In this document: positions 48,286 to 58,841 of the stretch, piece after piece
Numbering within the stretch: the first letter of the stretch is position 1
Layout of the letters: each line of letters starts with the position of its first letter
From: Brachyspira hampsonii 30446
GTDB lineage: Bacteria; Spirochaetota; Brachyspiria; Brachyspirales; Brachyspiraceae
Direction of reading: 5' to 3'
Assembly (NCBI RefSeq): GCF_000316195.1
Contig: NZ_JH994111.1
Location: forward strand, 1 to 64,000
DNA length: 64,000 nucleotides
Notes under the pieces: model-generated
What the model was told of the DNA's origin: nothing
The model's input: only the letters and a program-made list of their open reading frames with translations
Database searches by the model: none
Made by a program: the position numbers and the translations under genes

Positions 48286-50070
48286 TTAAGGAAGTTCTTT
48301 AATTCCAAGTTCTTTTAAGAAGCCATTATGCTTTAATTTAGCATTTTTTATTTCTAATTCTATATTTTCAAGTTCCCCTATAACATCATCTATATTTATT
48401 ATTTCTTCTTCATCTGAAGTATTTACATATCTTGAAATATTAAGATTATATCCGTTTTTTTCTATTTCTTTCATAGATACTCTGCGGGAATATTTCTTAT
48501 TATCTTCTTTTCTATACTGATATGTATCAACTATTTTATCAATATGTTCATCTGAAAGTATATTCTGACGCTTTCCTTTTATAAATTCATTGCTGGCATT
48601 GATAATAAGCACATCATCGAATTTTTTGCATTTTTTAAGCACCAATATACAAACAGGTATACCAGTAAATGCAAAAAGATTGGAAGGCAAACCTATAACA
48701 GCATCAATATTTCCATCTTGTAAAAGTTTAGTCCTGATTTTTTCTTCGGATCCTCCTCTAAATAATACACCATGAGGAAGTATAATTGCCATAGTACCCT
48801 CATTACTCAAAAAATGAAATCCATGAAGCAAAAATGCAAAATCTGCTGCCGATTTAGGGGCTAAGCCATAATCTTTAAATCTAAAATCATTTTCCATATC
48901 TTCTTTAGGCTGCCATCTATAACTAAAAGGCGGATTTGCTACTACTACATCAAACAGTATTTTTTTGGCAGGATTCATCTCGCTTAAAATATCCCATTCA
49001 TTTAATAATGAATCGCCATGAAAAATTGTAAACTCAGAATCTTTTACTCCATGCAAAATCATATTCATTCTTGCAAGGTTATAAGTAGTGATATTTTTTT
49101 CCTGTCCGTATATCTGTCCGAAATTATTTTCTTTGAATTGTTTTCTAACATTTATAAGCAAAGATCCTGAACCGCATGCGAAATCAAAAATATTGTTAAT
49201 TTTAGTTTTCTTGCCTTTACTTGGATCCTGACAGTCAAGCACAACAATACGGGAAAGAATAGTAGAAACAGGCTGAGGCGTATAGAACTCTCCTGCCTTT
49301 TTTCCAGAACCTGCAGCAAATTGAGCTATCAAATACTCGTAAGCATCTCCCAAAATATCAGTGTCATTTGAAAATTGAGAAATACCATCTGCAATTTCTG
49401 TGATAATAGAGCTTATAAGTTTATTTCTTTCTGTATAACTTCTTCCTAATTTTTCAGAGTATAGATTTATCTCAGAAAATAACCCACTGAATGTACTTTC
49501 AAAAGATTCATTTTCAATATGTTTAAAACCGCTTACCAATGTATTTAAAAGCTCTTCATTTTGAGTTTTTGCTAATTCATATATATTTCTCCATAAATAT
49601 TGAGGCTTTATCACATAATGTACTTTTCTTCTAATGTCTTTTTCAAATAAATTTATGCTATTTAAATTTTTAATATACCATAAAATAAGAGGCTGCAAAG
49701 TATTTGATGAAAGCATTTTAGTATAATCATCAGCCCAATTTTCTCTAGCTTTTTTTATCTTTTCTTTATCTTTTTCATCTTCATTTAAATTCAATTTTGA
49801 TAGCGGTATAGTTTTAGAATATTTAAGTATAATTTTTTTTAGCTCTTCTATATATCTGTCATTATTATTTTTTACAGCCTCATTTTCAATTTCATCATAA
49901 TCTTTTCCAAGAAGAATTTTTACAGCTTCTTCATACTTGTCAGATAAATATTTTAAGAACAAAAAAGAAAGCATATAATCTTTAAAATCATCAGCGTCCA
50001 TTGCCCCTCTTAATTTATCGGCTATAGCCCATAAAATAGCCCCCAACTGTTTTTTTTGCTCATCACTCAT
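48286..50070 (-). CDS. hsdM: type I restriction-modification methyltransferase HsdM
   Basis: 594 residues. N-terminal HsdM helical domain (QLGAILWAIADKLRGAMDAD, then LKYLSDKYEEAVK) and N6-adenine methylase domain with SAM motif FDFACGSGSLL (about 300) and the catalytic NPPF in VVVANPPFSYRW. GEFYTPQPVSTILSRIV is typical. An open frame extends to 50133, but AGGAG lies 7 nt before ATG 50070 and the MSDEQKK start matches the family. Last gene of the operon hsdR-hsdS-hsdM, 46 bp after hsdS. Confidence 0.95.
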   Translation of the reverse strand: MSDEQKKQLGAILWAIADKLRGAMDADDFKDYMLSFLFLKYLSDKYEEAVKILLGKDYDEIENEAVKNNNDRYIEELKKIILKYSKTIPLSKLNLNEDEKDKEKIKKARENWADDYTKMLSSNTLQPLILWYIKNLNSINLFEKDIRRKVHYVIKPQYLWRNIYELAKTQNEELLNTLVSGFKHIENESFESTFSGLFSEINLYSEKLGRSYTERNKLISSIITEIADGISQFSNDTDILGDAYEYLIAQFAAGSGKKAGEFYTPQPVSTILSRIVVLDCQDPSKGKKTKINNIFDFACGSGSLLINVRKQFKENNFGQIYGQEKNITTYNLARMNMILHGVKDSEFTIFHGDSLLNEWDILSEMNPAKKILFDVVVANPPFSYRWQPKEDMENDFRFKDYGLAPKSAADFAFLLHGFHFLSNEGTMAIILPHGVLFRGGSEEKIRTKLLQDGNIDAVIGLPSNLFAFTGIPVCILVLKKCKKFDDVLIINASNEFIKGKRQNILSDEHIDKIVDTYQYRKEDNKKYSRRVSMKEIEKNGYNLNISRYVNTSDEEEIINIDDVIGELENIELEIKNAKLKHNGFLKELGIKELP

Positions 50071-50116
50071 CTTTTTTCTCCTATTTTTATTATCAATTAT
50101 ATTTTTATTTAATTGA

Positions 50117-51412
50117 TTATTCATACTCCTCAATACTCTCCATATCAGGAAAAAGCCCCTGCATCAAAGCCTTTTTATGTTTAATTAAATTGTCTATTCT
50201 TTTAACCTGACTGTCAATAATGCTGTCAATAGAAGCCAAGCAATCAGCGATTTTTTGTTGTTCTTGAAAATTCTTTGGAATATAAAATGACAAATTTAAA
50301 ATATCTTCTCCTCTAAGATTAGCAATAGAACCATTGCCGCCACTTAATATAATGTCTAATTTTTTTTTATATAAATTTGTCTGAAATAAATATCTAGTAA
50401 TATTTAATTTACTTCTAAATATTCCACAAAAAGCCCCAACTGTAATATCTCCACTATACATACCATCATAAAATGAAGCTTTTCCAACTAAATCTCTGCT
50501 CCCATTTGCCATACAAATAGTTATATCTCCTGTAATTAATTTTTGTTCTTCTTTGCAAGGCTTTTGTACATATTGTAATCCATTTTTATAGTCTGTAATT
50601 CCCATTGGAATAATATTATTAGACCTTATAATTAATAATTTGGAAGTATCATTTGTTGTATCTTCACCCTTATAAGAAAATCCTCTTATAAATTTACCTA
50701 TTTCAGATAGTTTTTTATTTTCCCATTCTCCTGAGTCTTTAAACTCCGCAAATCTCAATTCTGGAATGGAAGAATCTTCAGATGGAAAAAGTTTCTGCAT
50801 TAAGGCTTTTTTATATTTTTTTAAAACCTCTAATTTTCTTTTCTCAGCCTCTATAAGCTCATCAATAGAATCCAAACAATCGGCAATTTTTTTCTGTTCT
50901 TCTAAGCTTGGTAAAACAATAGGTATATCCCATAAATGTTTTGTATCAAAGTTTAAAGAACCATGAGCACGTCCTCCTACTTCAATATATTTTCTTAGCC
51001 AATAACCATGATAATTATTATAAAAAAGGTAATTTAATATATTGGGATAATATTGTTTATCAGTAATTCTAAAACAAATAAAAATACTATTTGGGACTGC
51101 AGCAATATCATAATTGTTTAGCATAGATATAAAGCCTTCAGGAAATTGTTTTGTGGCACTTTTATTATAAGCAAAATCGTATTTTCTAATTACAATATAA
51201 TTTTTATATGAATTTCCAGCTATTTCTCTTCCAAATTTTTCTGTTTGAGATATTAAACCAATACCTGATGTAACACTAAGGGGAATATATTTATTTTTTC
51301 CTGCTTTTTCCTCAATAACTGAAGATATTTTGCCTAAATTTGTAATATCCCAGCTAGGAGAATTTTTGAATTCCTGAAAGCGAAGTCTTGGAACTAATTT
51401 ATTCTTCTTCAT
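50117..51412 (-). CDS. hsdS: type I restriction specificity subunit HsdS
   Basis: 431 residues with two target-recognition domains (about 10-170 and 215-385). Each is followed by the conserved helix: LEEQKKIADCLDSIDELIEA with KKALMQKLFPS, and QEQQKIADCLASIDSIIDSQ with KKALMQGLFP. Each domain reads one half of a bipartite target. It overlaps hsdR by 14 bp. Both domains appear full length, so the enzyme is probably active. Confidence 0.94.
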   Translation of the reverse strand: MKKNKLVPRLRFQEFKNSPSWDITNLGKISSVIEEKAGKNKYIPLSVTSGIGLISQTEKFGREIAGNSYKNYIVIRKYDFAYNKSATKQFPEGFISMLNNYDIAAVPNSIFICFRITDKQYYPNILNYLFYNNYHGYWLRKYIEVGGRAHGSLNFDTKHLWDIPIVLPSLEEQKKIADCLDSIDELIEAEKRKLEVLKKYKKALMQKLFPSEDSSIPELRFAEFKDSGEWENKKLSEIGKFIRGFSYKGEDTTNDTSKLLIIRSNNIIPMGITDYKNGLQYVQKPCKEEQKLITGDITICMANGSRDLVGKASFYDGMYSGDITVGAFCGIFRSKLNITRYLFQTNLYKKKLDIILSGGNGSIANLRGEDILNLSFYIPKNFQEQQKIADCLASIDSIIDSQVKRIDNLIKHKKALMQGLFPDMESIEEYE

Positions 51413-54400
51413 AAATACTTAATCCTTTAATACTTCTATCTTTAGAAAGTTTTTTCAATATCGGTAAAATATCTTTCATTATGGCTTTCTCTTTAGAACT
51501 TCTCTCTATCCAGCCTAAATTTAATGGGGAGACCAAATCTGTTAATGAATCCTCATTAAGAACAAGCATATCTGAAGTGTGGTATACAAATGTTTTAAGT
51601 GCTTCATTGTCTATACCATGTTTTTTAGCTATAGCATTTATCTCTTCATTATTCTTTTTCTCTTTAAACTTATTATAATTTTCTTTTAATTCTTTTTCGC
51701 TTAAAGGTTTATTATAAGTAAGAAGATTTATATATTCTTTGAGATCTTCCTGTTCATCAAGCATACTTGTTGTAGAGGATAATAATTTTATTATATCTTC
51801 TTTTGCTGCTTTTACTTTTTCTACATTTTGGCCTGTCATTTTTGATATAAGAGACATTATATAATCATAATCTATAATATCATTGGCAAATAGTATATAT
51901 TCAAAATCTGTTTGCTCAAATGTTTCATCATTTTCGCCATTTTCAATATGATCTCTATTTTGTTTTTTTAGTCTTTCTGCCACATCGATATACATACCTG
52001 AAAATGCTTTAAAAAGATTTTTTGACATGCATTTTTCTATTTTCTCGGCATCTTTTTCTTCTATATTCACATACTGTTCAATATAGTTTCTTATTCTTCT
52101 TATCTCTTTAAACTTATTAATAAATTCATATCTGGCATCATCGCCTTTTAAATTACTTATCTCTTCAGGTTTAAAATCAAGTTTCTTTGATTCCATAAAC
52201 TTTTTTAATTCATTGACAGCATTATTATATTCTTCTGCCATTTCAAATGCCTTAGGAGTAAGCCATATTTCTTTTACTGTTTCGCTATTTTCATTTCCAG
52301 AAAAAAGTGATATAGCCTCATCAACAGCCTCCTTTTGATATCTAAAATCGAGTATATTTCCATAAGGTTTTAAGCCATTTAAAATCCTGTTGGTTCTTGA
52401 AAATGCTTGTATTAATCCATGATGTTTTAAATTCTTATCAACATATATTGTATTTAAATATTTTGAATCAAAACCTGTTAATAGCATATCAACTACTATT
52501 GTTATATCTATTTTTTTATTATGCGGATAATCGGCATTGCTGTATTTTTGATTTTTTATTCTCTCCTGCACATCTTTATAATATGCATCAAAATTATTAA
52601 TATCATAATTAGTATTATATTGTTTATTATAATCATCTATAATATCGCTTAATGCTTTTTTCTTTTTTTCAGGATCTTTTTTATTATCTTCTTTTTCCTG
52701 CAAAAGATCCTCTTGAAGCTGTTTAACATCTTTATTGCCTTCAGCGGGAGGAGAAAACACGCAGGATATATTTAGAGTTTCAAAATCATCATTACTTTCT
52801 TTATATTTCTTTTGCTGAGACTTAAAAATATCATAATATTCAATAGCTTCATTAATAGAAGATACTGCAAATAGGGCATTATATTTTCTATAAACAGTTA
52901 CTTTATCATGGCTTTCTAATATTTTATTTACAATGGAGGTTTTATTCTGATATTTATTTGCTACTTTATCATCATTAGGACCAAAGTATTGAATATTAAA
53001 ACGCAAAACATTATTATCATCAATAGCATTTGTGATAGTATATGAATGAAGTTCTTTTTCAAAAATATCTTTTGTTGTGGCATAAGTGCCTTCTGTTCCG
53101 TCTATCTTTTTATAATTAGAATTTTGTGCAAAAATAGGGGTTCCTGTAAAGCCAAAAAATTGTGCCTTTGGAAAGAAGTTTTTAATGGTTTTATGATTTT
53201 CTCCAAATTGCGAACGATGACATTCATCAAATATTATAACAACTCTTTTATTAGAAAGCGGTGATAAAAGTTCTTTGTATGTAGGAAGTCCAATTTTCTT
53301 CTTACTTTTATTTCTTTTACTATTTTCATCGAGTGCTAATACTAATTTTTGTATTGTAGTTACTATCACTTTGTTTTTTATATCATCAGAAATAAGCCTT
53401 TCCACTAGATTTTTTGTATTTGTATTTTCTTCTACACAGTTCTCTTGAAATTTATTAAACTCTTCTCTTGTTTGTTTATCTAAATCTTTTCTGTCTACAA
53501 CAAAAAGACATTTTGCTATATTTCTATTATCTTTCAATAATGTTGAAGCTTTGAAAGATGTTAAAGTTTTTCCGCTTCCTGTGGTATGCCAAATATATCC
53601 GTTTCCTCTGTTTTGTTCTATACAGTCTATTATAGCTTTTACAGCATGTATTTGATAATAACGCATAAGAAGTAATTTTTTTTCTGTTTCCATTAAAACT
53701 ATATACTTGCTTATAAATTCACCTAATGGGCATTTTGATAAAAAAACCTCAGCAAAGTCATGTAAATATGTAATTTTTTTATTTTCTTTATCAGCAAGAT
53801 AATGTATATCTGTAAATTCTTCTTTAGCATTAAAATTAAAATGTTCATTGTTGTTGTTTGCAAAATAATATGTATTGCTCCTATTACTCACAATGAAAAT
53901 CTGCACAAAACACAATAAAGAATTAGTAAATCCATTGCCTGCATCTTTTTTATATTCCACTATCTGTTCCATAGCTTTTTTAGGTGAGATATGAAGAGTT
54001 TTTAATTCTATATGCACAACAGGTATGCCATTAATAAGTATTACAACATCATAACGATGATTACTATTTTCTGTATTCATACGAAGCTGATTAGTTACTT
54101 CATATTCATTTTTGCACCAATCGGTTGTATTTACAAGAGTGTAATCTAAAACAGTATCATCATCTCTTTTTAAATTATTTTTTTCTCTTAATATTTTTGA
54201 TGCAGAAAATACATCTGAAGTTATAATATCTTCTTTTAATCTTGAAAACTCATTATCACTTAATTTAACTTTATTAAGATTTTCAAAATGATTCCTGAAA
54301 TTGGCATCAAGAGACATTCTATCTCTTATATCATTTCTATATGTATATTTTAAATCTATAAGTTTATTAATAAAGTCTTTTTCTATTTTTGTTTCACATT

Positions 54401-54416
54401 CAATTTTTTCTTCCAT
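51399..54416 (-). CDS. hsdR: type I restriction endonuclease subunit HsdR
   Basis: 1005 residues. N-terminal nuclease domain (YDVVILINGIPVVHIELKT, about 115-135), Walker A YIWHTTGSGKTLTSFKAST (about 275), DEAD-like box VVIIFDECHRSQFG (about 395), TGTPIF, and helicase motif VVDMLLTGFDSKYLNTIYVD, then AFSRTNR. It translocates DNA with ATP and cuts it at a distance when the target is unmethylated. First gene of the operon; weak AAAGG before the ATG. Confidence 0.95.
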   Translation of the reverse strand: MEEKIECETKIEKDFINKLIDLKYTYRNDIRDRMSLDANFRNHFENLNKVKLSDNEFSRLKEDIITSDVFSASKILREKNNLKRDDDTVLDYTLVNTTDWCKNEYEVTNQLRMNTENSNHRYDVVILINGIPVVHIELKTLHISPKKAMEQIVEYKKDAGNGFTNSLLCFVQIFIVSNRSNTYYFANNNNEHFNFNAKEEFTDIHYLADKENKKITYLHDFAEVFLSKCPLGEFISKYIVLMETEKKLLLMRYYQIHAVKAIIDCIEQNRGNGYIWHTTGSGKTLTSFKASTLLKDNRNIAKCLFVVDRKDLDKQTREEFNKFQENCVEENTNTKNLVERLISDDIKNKVIVTTIQKLVLALDENSKRNKSKKKIGLPTYKELLSPLSNKRVVIIFDECHRSQFGENHKTIKNFFPKAQFFGFTGTPIFAQNSNYKKIDGTEGTYATTKDIFEKELHSYTITNAIDDNNVLRFNIQYFGPNDDKVANKYQNKTSIVNKILESHDKVTVYRKYNALFAVSSINEAIEYYDIFKSQQKKYKESNDDFETLNISCVFSPPAEGNKDVKQLQEDLLQEKEDNKKDPEKKKKALSDIIDDYNKQYNTNYDINNFDAYYKDVQERIKNQKYSNADYPHNKKIDITIVVDMLLTGFDSKYLNTIYVDKNLKHHGLIQAFSRTNRILNGLKPYGNILDFRYQKEAVDEAISLFSGNENSETVKEIWLTPKAFEMAEEYNNAVNELKKFMESKKLDFKPEEISNLKGDDARYEFINKFKEIRRIRNYIEQYVNIEEKDAEKIEKCMSKNLFKAFSGMYIDVAERLKKQNRDHIENGENDETFEQTDFEYILFANDIIDYDYIMSLISKMTGQNVEKVKAAKEDIIKLLSSTTSMLDEQEDLKEYINLLTYNKPLSEKELKENYNKFKEKKNNEEINAIAKKHGIDNEALKTFVYHTSDMLVLNEDSLTDLVSPLNLGWIERSSKEKAIMKDILPILKKLSKDRSIKGLSIYEEE

Positions 54417-55823: not shown

Positions 55824-55964
55824 TAGATTTATTAAAAAAAATATTATTAATAGTAATATTTTAAAAATACAGGTTAAAAATCCTTGAAATCCATATTTTA
55901 TTTTACTATACTATAGAGTAATTGATAATAAACTGATAATAATAAGAACAAGCGGAAATTGATT

Positions 55965-56405
55965 ATGAATATGTATGTTAAGGATTGTCCTAAGCGAACA
56001 GAAAAAATATTATTTATGAAAAAAATACCAAGCGATAAATCATTAATACCAAAAATTTCTAAAGATTTTTTGGATATGCTTCATTCAAACGGCATAGAAC
56101 AATGCGATGCACTGCAGGTAGCATTTGAAGAAGCTCTTACAAATGCCATAATCCATGGAAATAAAAATAATCATGATAAAAGTGTGTATTTAAATATTAA
56201 TATAGATGATGAGAAAATAGAAATTATAATAGAAGATGAAGGCGAAGGATTTGATTATATTTCGGCTATGATAGAACTTACAGAATCTCAGGATAATATT
56301 TATAAAGACAGCGGAAGAGGGATATTTCTCATATCTTTATATACAGATGATTTTTATTTTGAAGATAGTGGAAGAAAGATAGTAATAATTAAAAACAGAA
56401 ATTGA
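55965..56405 (+). CDS. RsbW-like serine kinase / anti-sigma ATPase
   Basis: 146 residues with a HATPase_c_2 domain as in RsbW and SpoIIAB. N-box: FEEALTNAIIHGNKN. G1: EDEGEGFDY. G2: DSGRGIFLISLYTDD. Such proteins bind sigma factors or phosphorylate STAS antagonists. The frame also opens at TTG 55959, but GCGGA lies 9 nt before ATG 55965. No sigma factor or STAS protein is adjacent. It is divergent from the aminotransferase gene. Confidence 0.85.
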   Translation: MNMYVKDCPKRTEKILFMKKIPSDKSLIPKISKDFLDMLHSNGIEQCDALQVAFEEALTNAIIHGNKNNHDKSVYLNINIDDEKIEIIIEDEGEGFDYISAMIELTESQDNIYKDSGRGIFLISLYTDDFYFEDSGRKIVIIKNRN

Positions 56406-56691: not shown

Positions 56692-58242
56692 CTAATTTCT
56701 GCTAGGAATTCCAAAAGGTATTCTTAGTTTTACTATTGTACCAGCACCTTCTGAACTGTCTATATTTATAGTTCCTTGCATAGTATCAAGCAAATCTTTT
56801 ACAACAGATAAGCCAATACCCATTCCGCCGTACTCTCTTTCAAATCTTGAATCAGCCTGATAAAATGGTATGAATACTTTTTTTAATTTGCTTGGTTTTA
56901 TTCCCTTTCCTGTATCCTTTACTATTATCTCAATTTCATTTGGTATTATATTTTTCATAGTATGATAATTAAATAAGTCAGGCGAGAAATCAAGCTCTTT
57001 TTTTTCTATAGTATCTAAAGTTCTTACATTTATAGATATAGTTCCGGATTTTGTAAATTTAAAGGCATTTGATATTATTCCTTCCATAATAAGTCTGAAT
57101 CTTCCTTGATATCCTATTAATGTGATGCAGTTTTTTTCTACATTTATATCTATATTAATATCTTTTGGATAAATAAATTTGTATCCTTCTATAATAATAT
57201 TAAGTTCTTCTTCAATATTAAATTCTGATACATATTTTGAACTTTCATCATCTTTCAATGCTATTTGTATAAGGTTGTTATTAGTATCATAAAGTTTTTT
57301 AATGCTTCTTGAAACTATATTAAAGAACTCCTCTCTTTTTTCTTCTGGCATATTATTTTTTTTAAGGAGATTAATATATCCCATAATTTCTGTAAACGGA
57401 TGTCTTAATTCATGAGAAACAGTAGCTTTGAATTCCCTTATCAATCTATTGTAATGTTCAGCACTTTTTTTTAGAGAATTTATTTCATTTAATAGAGACT
57501 GAAGCCTTTTTTGAAGTATTAAATTATGATTTTTTTGATGTTCATATAATATAGAGAAATAAAGTCTGTGAAGTCCTATTTCAGTACCCGCATTTTTTAT
57601 TACACCTTCTTTGCACCATCTCATAGCTTTATCAAACGGCACGAAAAAAGATTCTATAGTTTCTTCCATAACAGAACCGTCAGTTTTAATTTCTTTTACC
57701 GGAGTTAATCCTGTTATATCGCATGTTGCAATATTAATTCTTTCTGTAATAATGCCTGAAGAACTATAATATCTATGTCCTAATACATTTATCTTTTTTA
57801 AATCTACATTATACCCTGTTTCTTCTTCAAGCTCTCTTTTGGCACATCTTTTTATTCCCTGATTAGGATTCTTTTCATTGATTTCATCTTCTTCGAGCAT
57901 ACCAGCAGGAAATTCTAAGAAATTCATAATATGTTCATCAATTTCCTCATAGTTTTTTCCTGTCATTACTTTCTCCCTATAATAAACAACCGGTCTGAAA
58001 GTGCTTATCATAAGAACCTGTATTTGATTGTCTATATAAGTGTATGGAACTATAATAACAGCATCTCTTCCTTTTCTATTTATTATATCGCAGTTATATT
58101 CCTTAGAAAAAGTTCCATCATCATATTCATTTATAGCCATAAACCTCTCTAAATTAACAAATCCTGTATCTAGTTGTATAGGGGGAGACTTACGAAAAAA
58201 TTTGGTATTTTTTACTTTTTTTGTTTTTTTATCATTAGGCAT
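56692..58242 (-). CDS. NUDIX hydrolase-histidine kinase fusion
   Basis: 516 residues, no membrane segment. Residues ~55-220 are a NUDIX domain: RDAVIIVPYTYIDNQIQVLM and the box starting FPAGMLEEDE (112-120) and ending RELEEETGY (136-144), with about 8 extra residues between. A coiled linker (~235-265) leads to a histidine kinase: phospho-acceptor VSHELRHPFTE (His277), N-box SNAFKF (391-396), G1 DTGKGI (443-448), F-box FIPFYQAD and G2 GGMGIGLS (472-479). All kinase motifs look intact. The NUDIX part may sense or hydrolyse a nucleoside diphosphate such as ADP-ribose. No response regulator is adjacent. Confidence 0.9.
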   Translation of the reverse strand: MPNDKKTKKVKNTKFFRKSPPIQLDTGFVNLERFMAINEYDDGTFSKEYNCDIINRKGRDAVIIVPYTYIDNQIQVLMISTFRPVVYYREKVMTGKNYEEIDEHIMNFLEFPAGMLEEDEINEKNPNQGIKRCAKRELEEETGYNVDLKKINVLGHRYYSSSGIITERINIATCDITGLTPVKEIKTDGSVMEETIESFFVPFDKAMRWCKEGVIKNAGTEIGLHRLYFSILYEHQKNHNLILQKRLQSLLNEINSLKKSAEHYNRLIREFKATVSHELRHPFTEIMGYINLLKKNNMPEEKREEFFNIVSRSIKKLYDTNNNLIQIALKDDESSKYVSEFNIEEELNIIIEGYKFIYPKDINIDINVEKNCITLIGYQGRFRLIMEGIISNAFKFTKSGTISINVRTLDTIEKKELDFSPDLFNYHTMKNIIPNEIEIIVKDTGKGIKPSKLKKVFIPFYQADSRFEREYGGMGIGLSVVKDLLDTMQGTINIDSSEGAGTIVKLRIPFGIPSRN

Positions 58243-58361: not shown

Positions 58362-58841
58362 TTATTCTTTTTTTATTACTTTTATTAATGTTATGACATT
58401 ACCTTTTTTATTGAATTTTACTTCATCAAAATATGATTTAATCATCATAATTCCTCTTCCGCTTTCACGGGCAAATCCGTCATTATTTATTTTTTTTGCT
58501 TCCTGTTTCGGTTTAAATCCAAGTCCCTGATCTTTAACTGCAATAATAATATTATCATCTTCTATTTGCAATGTTATTTCCACATGTGTGTTTTTAGCTT
58601 TATCAGTTTTTAGAAGTTCTTTTAATTTTTTATGATAAACATTTTTTTTAAGCCAATTTTTTTTGGTTTCATATAATATATTAAGATTTCCATGCTCAAT
58701 AGCATTCATAATCACTTCATATAATGCAGCAGCAAATAAATCCATTTCATTATTTGGTATGTATTTTTTTACTTCAGCAGACAAATTTTCTATTAATGGA
58801 GTAATGTCTTCTAACTTATTCTCAAGTAAATACTTTTTCAT
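58362..58841 (-). CDS. RsbW-like ATPase with basic insert
   Basis: 159 residues with a HATPase_c_2 domain: N-box LYEVIMNAIEHGN, G1 VKDQGLGFKP, G2 ESGRGIMMIKSYFDEV. Between N-box and the next strand is a Lys-rich insert of about 30 residues (KKNWLKKNVYHKKLKELLKT) not present in the 55965 paralogue. No ribosome binding site is visible before the ATG. It is upstream of the NUDIX-kinase gene, 119 bp apart, in the same direction. Confidence 0.8.
   Translation of the reverse strand: MKKYLLENKLEDITPLIENLSAEVKKYIPNNEMDLFAAALYEVIMNAIEHGNLNILYETKKNWLKKNVYHKKLKELLKTDKAKNTHVEITLQIEDDNIIIAVKDQGLGFKPKQEAKKINNDGFARESGRGIMMIKSYFDEVKFNKKGNVITLIKVIKKE

Follow-up and report, generated by a model that had tools for sequence, protein, structure and literature searches.

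What might be sensed by a soluble histidine kinase whose N-terminal half is a NUDIX domain, and does that domain still act as an enzyme? Among bacterial signalling enzymes, histidine kinases are the main group, and those located in the cytoplasm sense mostly through PAS and GAF domains. The window analysed here, the whole stretch of 64,000 nucleotides, comes from a Brachyspira genome of 3.04 Mb in four contigs and carries such a gene at 56692..58242 on the minus strand. The gene reads from an ATG start at 58242 to 56692 and encodes a complete protein of 516 residues, as indicated by the open frame, its translation, and orthologues in all 31 sampled genomes of the class. An initial annotation of the window had the coordinates right and proposed that a NUDIX domain and a complete histidine kinase lacking any membrane helix are encoded together in a single intact frame; both the open frame and the Pfam matches bore out this design.

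The Pfam search that had been suggested in the same annotation gave all three expected domains above their cut-offs: NUDIX at residues 110-167 (25.2 bits against 21.1), HisKA (PF00512), the dimerisation and phospho-acceptor domain, at residues 269-330 (57253..57438, minus strand; 35.7 bits against 26.9), and the catalytic domain HATPase_c (PF02518) at residues 380-510 (56713..57105, minus strand; 74.1 bits against 26.4, E 1.5e-20). At E <= 0.01, the NUDIX match was reported in 10 of the 12 family members scanned. The phospho-acceptor was, as proposed, His277 (codon 57412-57414), located in SHELRHP, and was followed by N392, the G1 box DTGKGI (443-448), FIPFYQ, and the G2 box GGMGIG (472-477). 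H277, E278, N392, D443, G445, G447, G473, G475, and G477 were invariant among 36 aligned sequences, so that the H box with its phospho-acceptor histidine and the N, G1, and G2 boxes by which a HisKA-type histidine kinase is recognised were all present, by Pfam and in the alignment. No membrane helix was found in the 516-residue protein, for which the highest 19-residue Kyte-Doolittle mean was 1.25.

In HisKA kinases, an ExxT/N motif after the histidine is linked to phosphatase activity, although it is not needed for membership. Here the motif reads ExxH, with H281 (codon 57400-57402) in 36 of 36 sequences; the phosphatase activity may therefore be weak, and kinase activity may be the step that is regulated. 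A class-specific motif, PDLFNYH (residues 421-427; 56962..56982, minus strand), lies in an insertion between the N box and the G1 box and was also invariant in the 36 sequences.

Each of the 31 genomes sampled in the class carried a single copy of the fusion: 26 were of Brachyspira and five came from four other genera. Of these five, two belong to a sister genus, one to a further genus in the same family, and two to a second family. Identity among the orthologues went down to 42%, and the two genomes of the second family showed 42-45%. Two ways in which the design might have been spurious had been named beforehand, a frameshift or assembly fusion near codon 230 and a lack of homologues with the same architecture. 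Neither applied: the frame was intact in 31 of 31 genomes and open through codon 230 in each of them, by which a frameshift or an assembly fusion was rejected, and homologues of this architecture occurred in every sampled genome of the class. When the NUDIX part was used as the query against 393 genomes of Spirochaetota, no such fusion was found outside the class, and the matches there were only short stand-alone NUDIX proteins in open frames of at most 216 codons. Close copies were sought on plasmids, where a single record had one weak, partial match to NUDIX, and in the viral contigs scanned, where no match occurred. Strong purifying selection acts on each half: in comparison with six close Brachyspira genomes, dN/dS was 0.04-0.09 in the NUDIX half and 0.02-0.06 in the kinase half. 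Furthermore, the two halves ranked the five distant genomes in identical order, which is consistent with one old fusion inherited vertically in the class.

The nearest relative of the kinase half outside the class was a 610-residue histidine kinase of another Spirochaetota family (genome G066, locus L101), with 34% identity and an E value of 2.4e-40. This protein has a long hydrophobic, apparently membrane-embedded N-terminus and no NUDIX match; it shares a partly similar insertion before the G1 box, but its H box reads SHELKTP, with Thr where the NUDIX kinases have His281. The presence of a hydrophobic N-terminus in place of NUDIX in this relative suggests that the ancestor of the class probably swapped one sensor for another. 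A weaker counterpart of the PDLFNYH motif, IDLFTHNWMNYM, was also seen in the membrane kinase.

The NUDIX half itself extends beyond the Pfam match, over residues 20-232 (57547..58185, minus strand), and includes an N-terminal subdomain of the AdpP/NudK type according to TIGR00052 and hhalign. TIGR00052, the NCBIfam family of YffH/AdpP that covers ADP-ribose and NDP-sugar hydrolases, matched residues 27-225 (E 4.9e-16, 58.9 bits) and was matched over nearly its full length in all 11 proteins scanned. Profile positions 14-184 of 188 were covered, indicating homology along the entire length with the N-terminal subdomain included; scores across the class were 46-69 bits, none of which reached the formal cut-off of 79.55 bits. 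By sequence, the fused domain is accordingly a relative of the TIGR00052 family and not a formal member. When the class profile was compared with solved structures, the top matches were E. coli NudK (E 2e-11) and ADP-ribose pyrophosphatases (E 1e-11 to 6e-10), and hhalign against E. coli NudF and NudK gave 99.2% over 177 columns starting at residue 22, again taking in the N-terminal subdomain. Judged from these profiles, the NUDIX half is a diverged domain of the AdpP/NudK (ADP-ribose and nucleotide-sugar) type. Among the ligand classes considered in the initial annotation, the ADP-ribose and nucleotide-sugar branch was thus upheld by TIGR00052, the structure profiles, and hhalign, and the (p)ppGpp or NADH branch was not.

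Motifs that separate substrates within this branch were also inspected. Asp-X-Lys at the start of helix α3 marks the NDPSases (NudK and Bd3179), which prefer GDP-mannose (PMC4629899); the corresponding residues here are N217-A218-G219, to be compared with N-A-A in NudF. A rule given for ADPRases by Dunn et al. (quoted in PMC4629899) places a proline 15 residues after the box glycine. Near that site, SPG occurs in the other genera and SSSG in Brachyspira, at a position shifted by 3-4 residues. The fused domain was the only TIGR00052 match in 30 of the 31 genomes of the class, one genome (G162) having a second, stand-alone match. No stand-alone AdpP-type NUDIX protein was found elsewhere in the source genome, whose three other NUDIX proteins fit other families better.

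The Nudix box (Pfam PF00293) spans residues 114-144 (57811..57903, minus strand) with the form G114 ... R136-E137-x2-E140-E141-x-G143, invariant in 36 sequences. Its metal-binding part, REUXEEXGU, was complete (R136, E137, E140, E141, and G143), and RELEEETGY lay at residues 136-144 as had been stated. The canonical spacing GX5EX7REUXEEXGU was broken by eight extra residues between G114 and R136, placed by alignment with E. coli NudF and NudK at approximately residues 121-128 (57859..57882, minus strand). These residues had been noticed before and are real; the accompanying idea that they reduce hydrolysis is unsupported, since the length of the insertion varies (about five residues in the other family and nine in one genus) while E137, E140, E141, E194, R83, G163, and E167 remain fixed. 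Moreover, in a structural survey, 38 of 78 solved domains, some hydrolases included, had a Nudix box altered by substitution, deletion, or insertion (PMC5389931), so that extra residues are no test of activity.

The fused domain was then compared residue by residue with two TIGR00052 proteins of E. coli, NudF (AdpP), an ADP-ribose pyrophosphatase, and NudK, a GDP-mannose hydrolase. In common are the N-terminal subdomain, the RExxEExG box, the phosphate arginine, the distal-sugar glutamate, and the loop glutamate (NudF E164). Specifically, A96, G97, E112, E115, and E116 in the metal box of NudF correspond to A113, G114, E137, E140, and E141; R79, which contacts the phosphate, to R83; E164 of loop L9 to E194; and G135 and E139, assigned to the distal sugar via their Bd3179 counterparts in PMC4629899, to G163 and E167. 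All of these were identical in the 36 sequences, in which F28, the base-stacking aromatic residue of loop L1, was also invariant. In contrast to NudF and NudK, the fused domain has the extra box residues, a longer segment before the box, and a kinase attached, and it lacks the D-x-K motif and scores below the family cut-off. The tandem Arg-Glu of strand β3 (R51-E52 in NudF) is furthermore replaced by Cys51-Asp52, invariant in the 36 sequences. The arginine stacks on the base in NudF, NudK, and Bd3179 and has been called "absolutely conserved" (PMC4629899); with both residues replaced, the nucleobase may therefore differ. These comparisons suggest that the ligand is probably ADP-ribose-like, with uncertain base specificity.

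A further difference concerns NudF E162, which we take to be the loop glutamate proposed as its catalytic base: it aligns with an invariant M192, with E193 and E194 alongside. Together with the invariant C51-D52 and the insertions near the active site, M192 could speak for a catalytically dead sensor that binds a nucleotide ligand without hydrolysing it and only gates the kinase, the view taken in the initial annotation. There is a precedent in human TRPM2, whose NUDT9-H domain is an ADP-ribose sensor attached to a signalling output and whose Nudix box does not support catalysis, yet ADP-ribose gates the channel (PMC4974056). TRPM2, however, is a eukaryotic channel, whereas the RExxEE glutamates of the NUDIX kinase are all intact and, with E194, invariant down to 42% identity, which a pure binder need not maintain. 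In addition, stand-alone spirochaete relatives vary at the M192 position as well, with the E194 equivalent retained. A dead sensor consequently appears unlikely to us, and hydrolysis is more likely to have been kept than lost.

How could such a pocket reach the kinase? The last NUDIX helix runs through a heptad coiled coil into the phospho-acceptor helix over residues 226-275 (57418..57567, minus strand), as indicated by the hydrophobic register and the fixed spacing. Register positions 243, 247, 250, 254, 257, 261, 264, 268, 271, and 275, in 3-4 alternation, were 98% hydrophobic in the 36 sequences, and registers shifted by one to three positions within residues 243-275 were 12-51% hydrophobic. 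The spacing from T220 to H277 was 57 residues in 35 of the 36 sequences and 58 in the remaining one. The joining helix thus looks as a signal-transmitting coiled coil should. In enzymes of the NudF/NudK type, both monomers contribute to the pocket, the second one supplying 46% of the buried ADP-ribose surface, and the distal sugar is contacted by the beginning of helix α3 (PMC4629899). The equivalent of α3 in the present protein is the very helix that continues into the kinase. A full-length AlphaFold model made with 10 close homologues had a mean pLDDT of 46.7, too low for reading the fold, because only close homologues were supplied.

With moderate confidence, we favour a cytoplasmic dimeric histidine kinase in which a NUDIX domain of the AdpP/NudK type provides the sensory input, a ligand shifts the joining helix, and the ligand is probably hydrolysed; the NUDIX domain as the sensor is the most economical reading of the architecture. 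The NUDIX halves would form the two-fold dimer typical of NudF and NudK, domain-swapped in the AdpP/NudK family, with a pocket made by both subunits, and ADP-ribose or a related NDP-sugar would bind there with Mg2+. The occupied pocket, partly lined by the beginning of the final NUDIX helix, would shift that helix, and the shift would raise or lower His277 autophosphorylation via the coiled coil. As the hydrolytic residues are kept, the bound ligand would probably also be hydrolysed, so that the signal would be self-terminating and the flux or the pool size of a metabolite would be what the kinase reports. In a tentative extension, which we consider possible at best, the protein would be a self-resetting kinase with the only ADP-ribose/NDP-sugar-type NUDIX hydrolase of the cell built in, turnover itself being the signalling event and flux the quantity measured.

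A housekeeping hydrolase of ADP-ribose or NDP-sugars that is merely tethered to a kinase and senses nothing would likewise retain the catalytic residues, and in the 30 genomes with no other AdpP/NudK-type NUDIX the housekeeping role would fall to this protein. However, nothing else in the kinase is recognisable as a sensory region, and the helix between the halves holds its heptad phase and length, for which a mere tether has no need. We regard this bifunctional enzyme as rather improbable.

The sensory reading we favour has partial parallels in known systems, of which TRPM2 is one. B. japonicum FixL and similar soluble PAS/GAF kinases have in common with the present protein a cytoplasmic HisKA kinase, an N-terminal ligand-binding domain, and a helix joining the two, but their sensor is PAS or GAF and not NUDIX. 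NrtR is a repressor composed of a NUDIX domain and a winged helix, and its output is DNA binding; the C-terminal winged helix is absent here, the C-terminus being HisKA/HATPase_c, and Pfam found no DNA-binding domain. The likeness lies in the regulatory role of NUDIX, as a module of a soluble signalling protein, that is described for NrtR (PMC6800001). Nudix goes unmentioned in a review of histidine-kinase sensing from 2021 (PMC8534201), and the text of a review of the Nudix clan contains neither "histidine kinase" nor "two-component" (PMC5389931). In agreement with the earlier remark that no characterised protein is known to have this design, no NUDIX histidine kinase was found in the open-access full-text literature; the mentions that were checked, a reference-list entry and a text on ADP-ribose signalling and cRec, were unrelated. 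Within the open-access literature and the Spirochaetota sampled, the sensory domain of this histidine kinase is apparently undescribed, and the protein is conserved throughout an entire bacterial class. If the proposal holds, two-component signalling would be tied directly to NAD/ADP-ribose or cell-envelope sugar metabolism, and the self-resetting version would add a new class of cytoplasmic sensor to two-component signalling, spread across a class that includes gut pathogens. Signalling has received little study in Brachyspira, which includes species of the swine and human gut, and the kinase, which every genome sampled in the class encodes, is small, soluble, and testable with standard assays.

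Where the phosphate would go was considered from the neighbouring genes and the receiver proteins. No response regulator was found adjacent to the kinase gene. The source genome encodes 14 receiver proteins above the cut-off, five of them single-domain, and each of these five has counterparts in at least one relative. Upstream of the kinase gene lies a gene for an RsbW/SpoIIAB-like ATPase (58362..58841, minus strand; Pfam HATPase_c_2, E 6.4e-16). The two are separated by 119 bases here; in two other genera the distance is about 13 and about 40 bases, and such short gaps on the same strand make their co-transcription likely. In the proposed mechanism, phosphate would pass from His277 to one of the stand-alone receivers, and/or the output would be shared with the neighbouring RsbW-like ATPase.

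The same neighbour raises the idea that NUDIX serves chiefly for dimerisation or docking, and that the kinase takes its true input from contact with another protein, such as this ATPase. The ATPase gene lies beside that of the kinase in 25 of 26 Brachyspira genomes and in 3 of 3 other genomes of the family (28 of 29). Yet it is not adjacent in the one remaining Brachyspira genome (G019) or in the two genomes of the second family, where the kinase gene persists, and the invariance of the NUDIX half is concentrated in pocket and metal residues. Docking as the main role thus seems improbable.

Other neighbours differed among lineages. A second RsbW/SpoIIAB-like HATPase_c_2 protein flanks the kinase gene downstream (55959-56405, plus strand) and is a neighbour in some Brachyspira only. 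In three deep Brachyspira lineages and the sister genus, the kinase gene is adjoined by a convergent cluster of an ECF sigma factor, a zinc-finger anti-sigma-like protein, and a small exported-looking Metal_resist/Spy-like protein (L066:8147-9649, L071:4825-6301, L072:8395-9853, and L073:8078-9429); in the source genome, the counterpart ECF sigma factor is located elsewhere (G000:C3:623695-624216). We treat these ECF and anti-sigma neighbours as leads and not as evidence of the output. In the second family, the kinase gene is preceded by two conserved genes, which encode a 311-residue protein and a short lipoprotein-like protein (L069:172-1512 and L070:7541-8910), neither with a Pfam match above the cut-off. 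Elsewhere in the window, three adjacent frames at 48286-54416 (minus strand) resemble, from their translations, the modification, specificity, and restriction components of a type I restriction-modification system.
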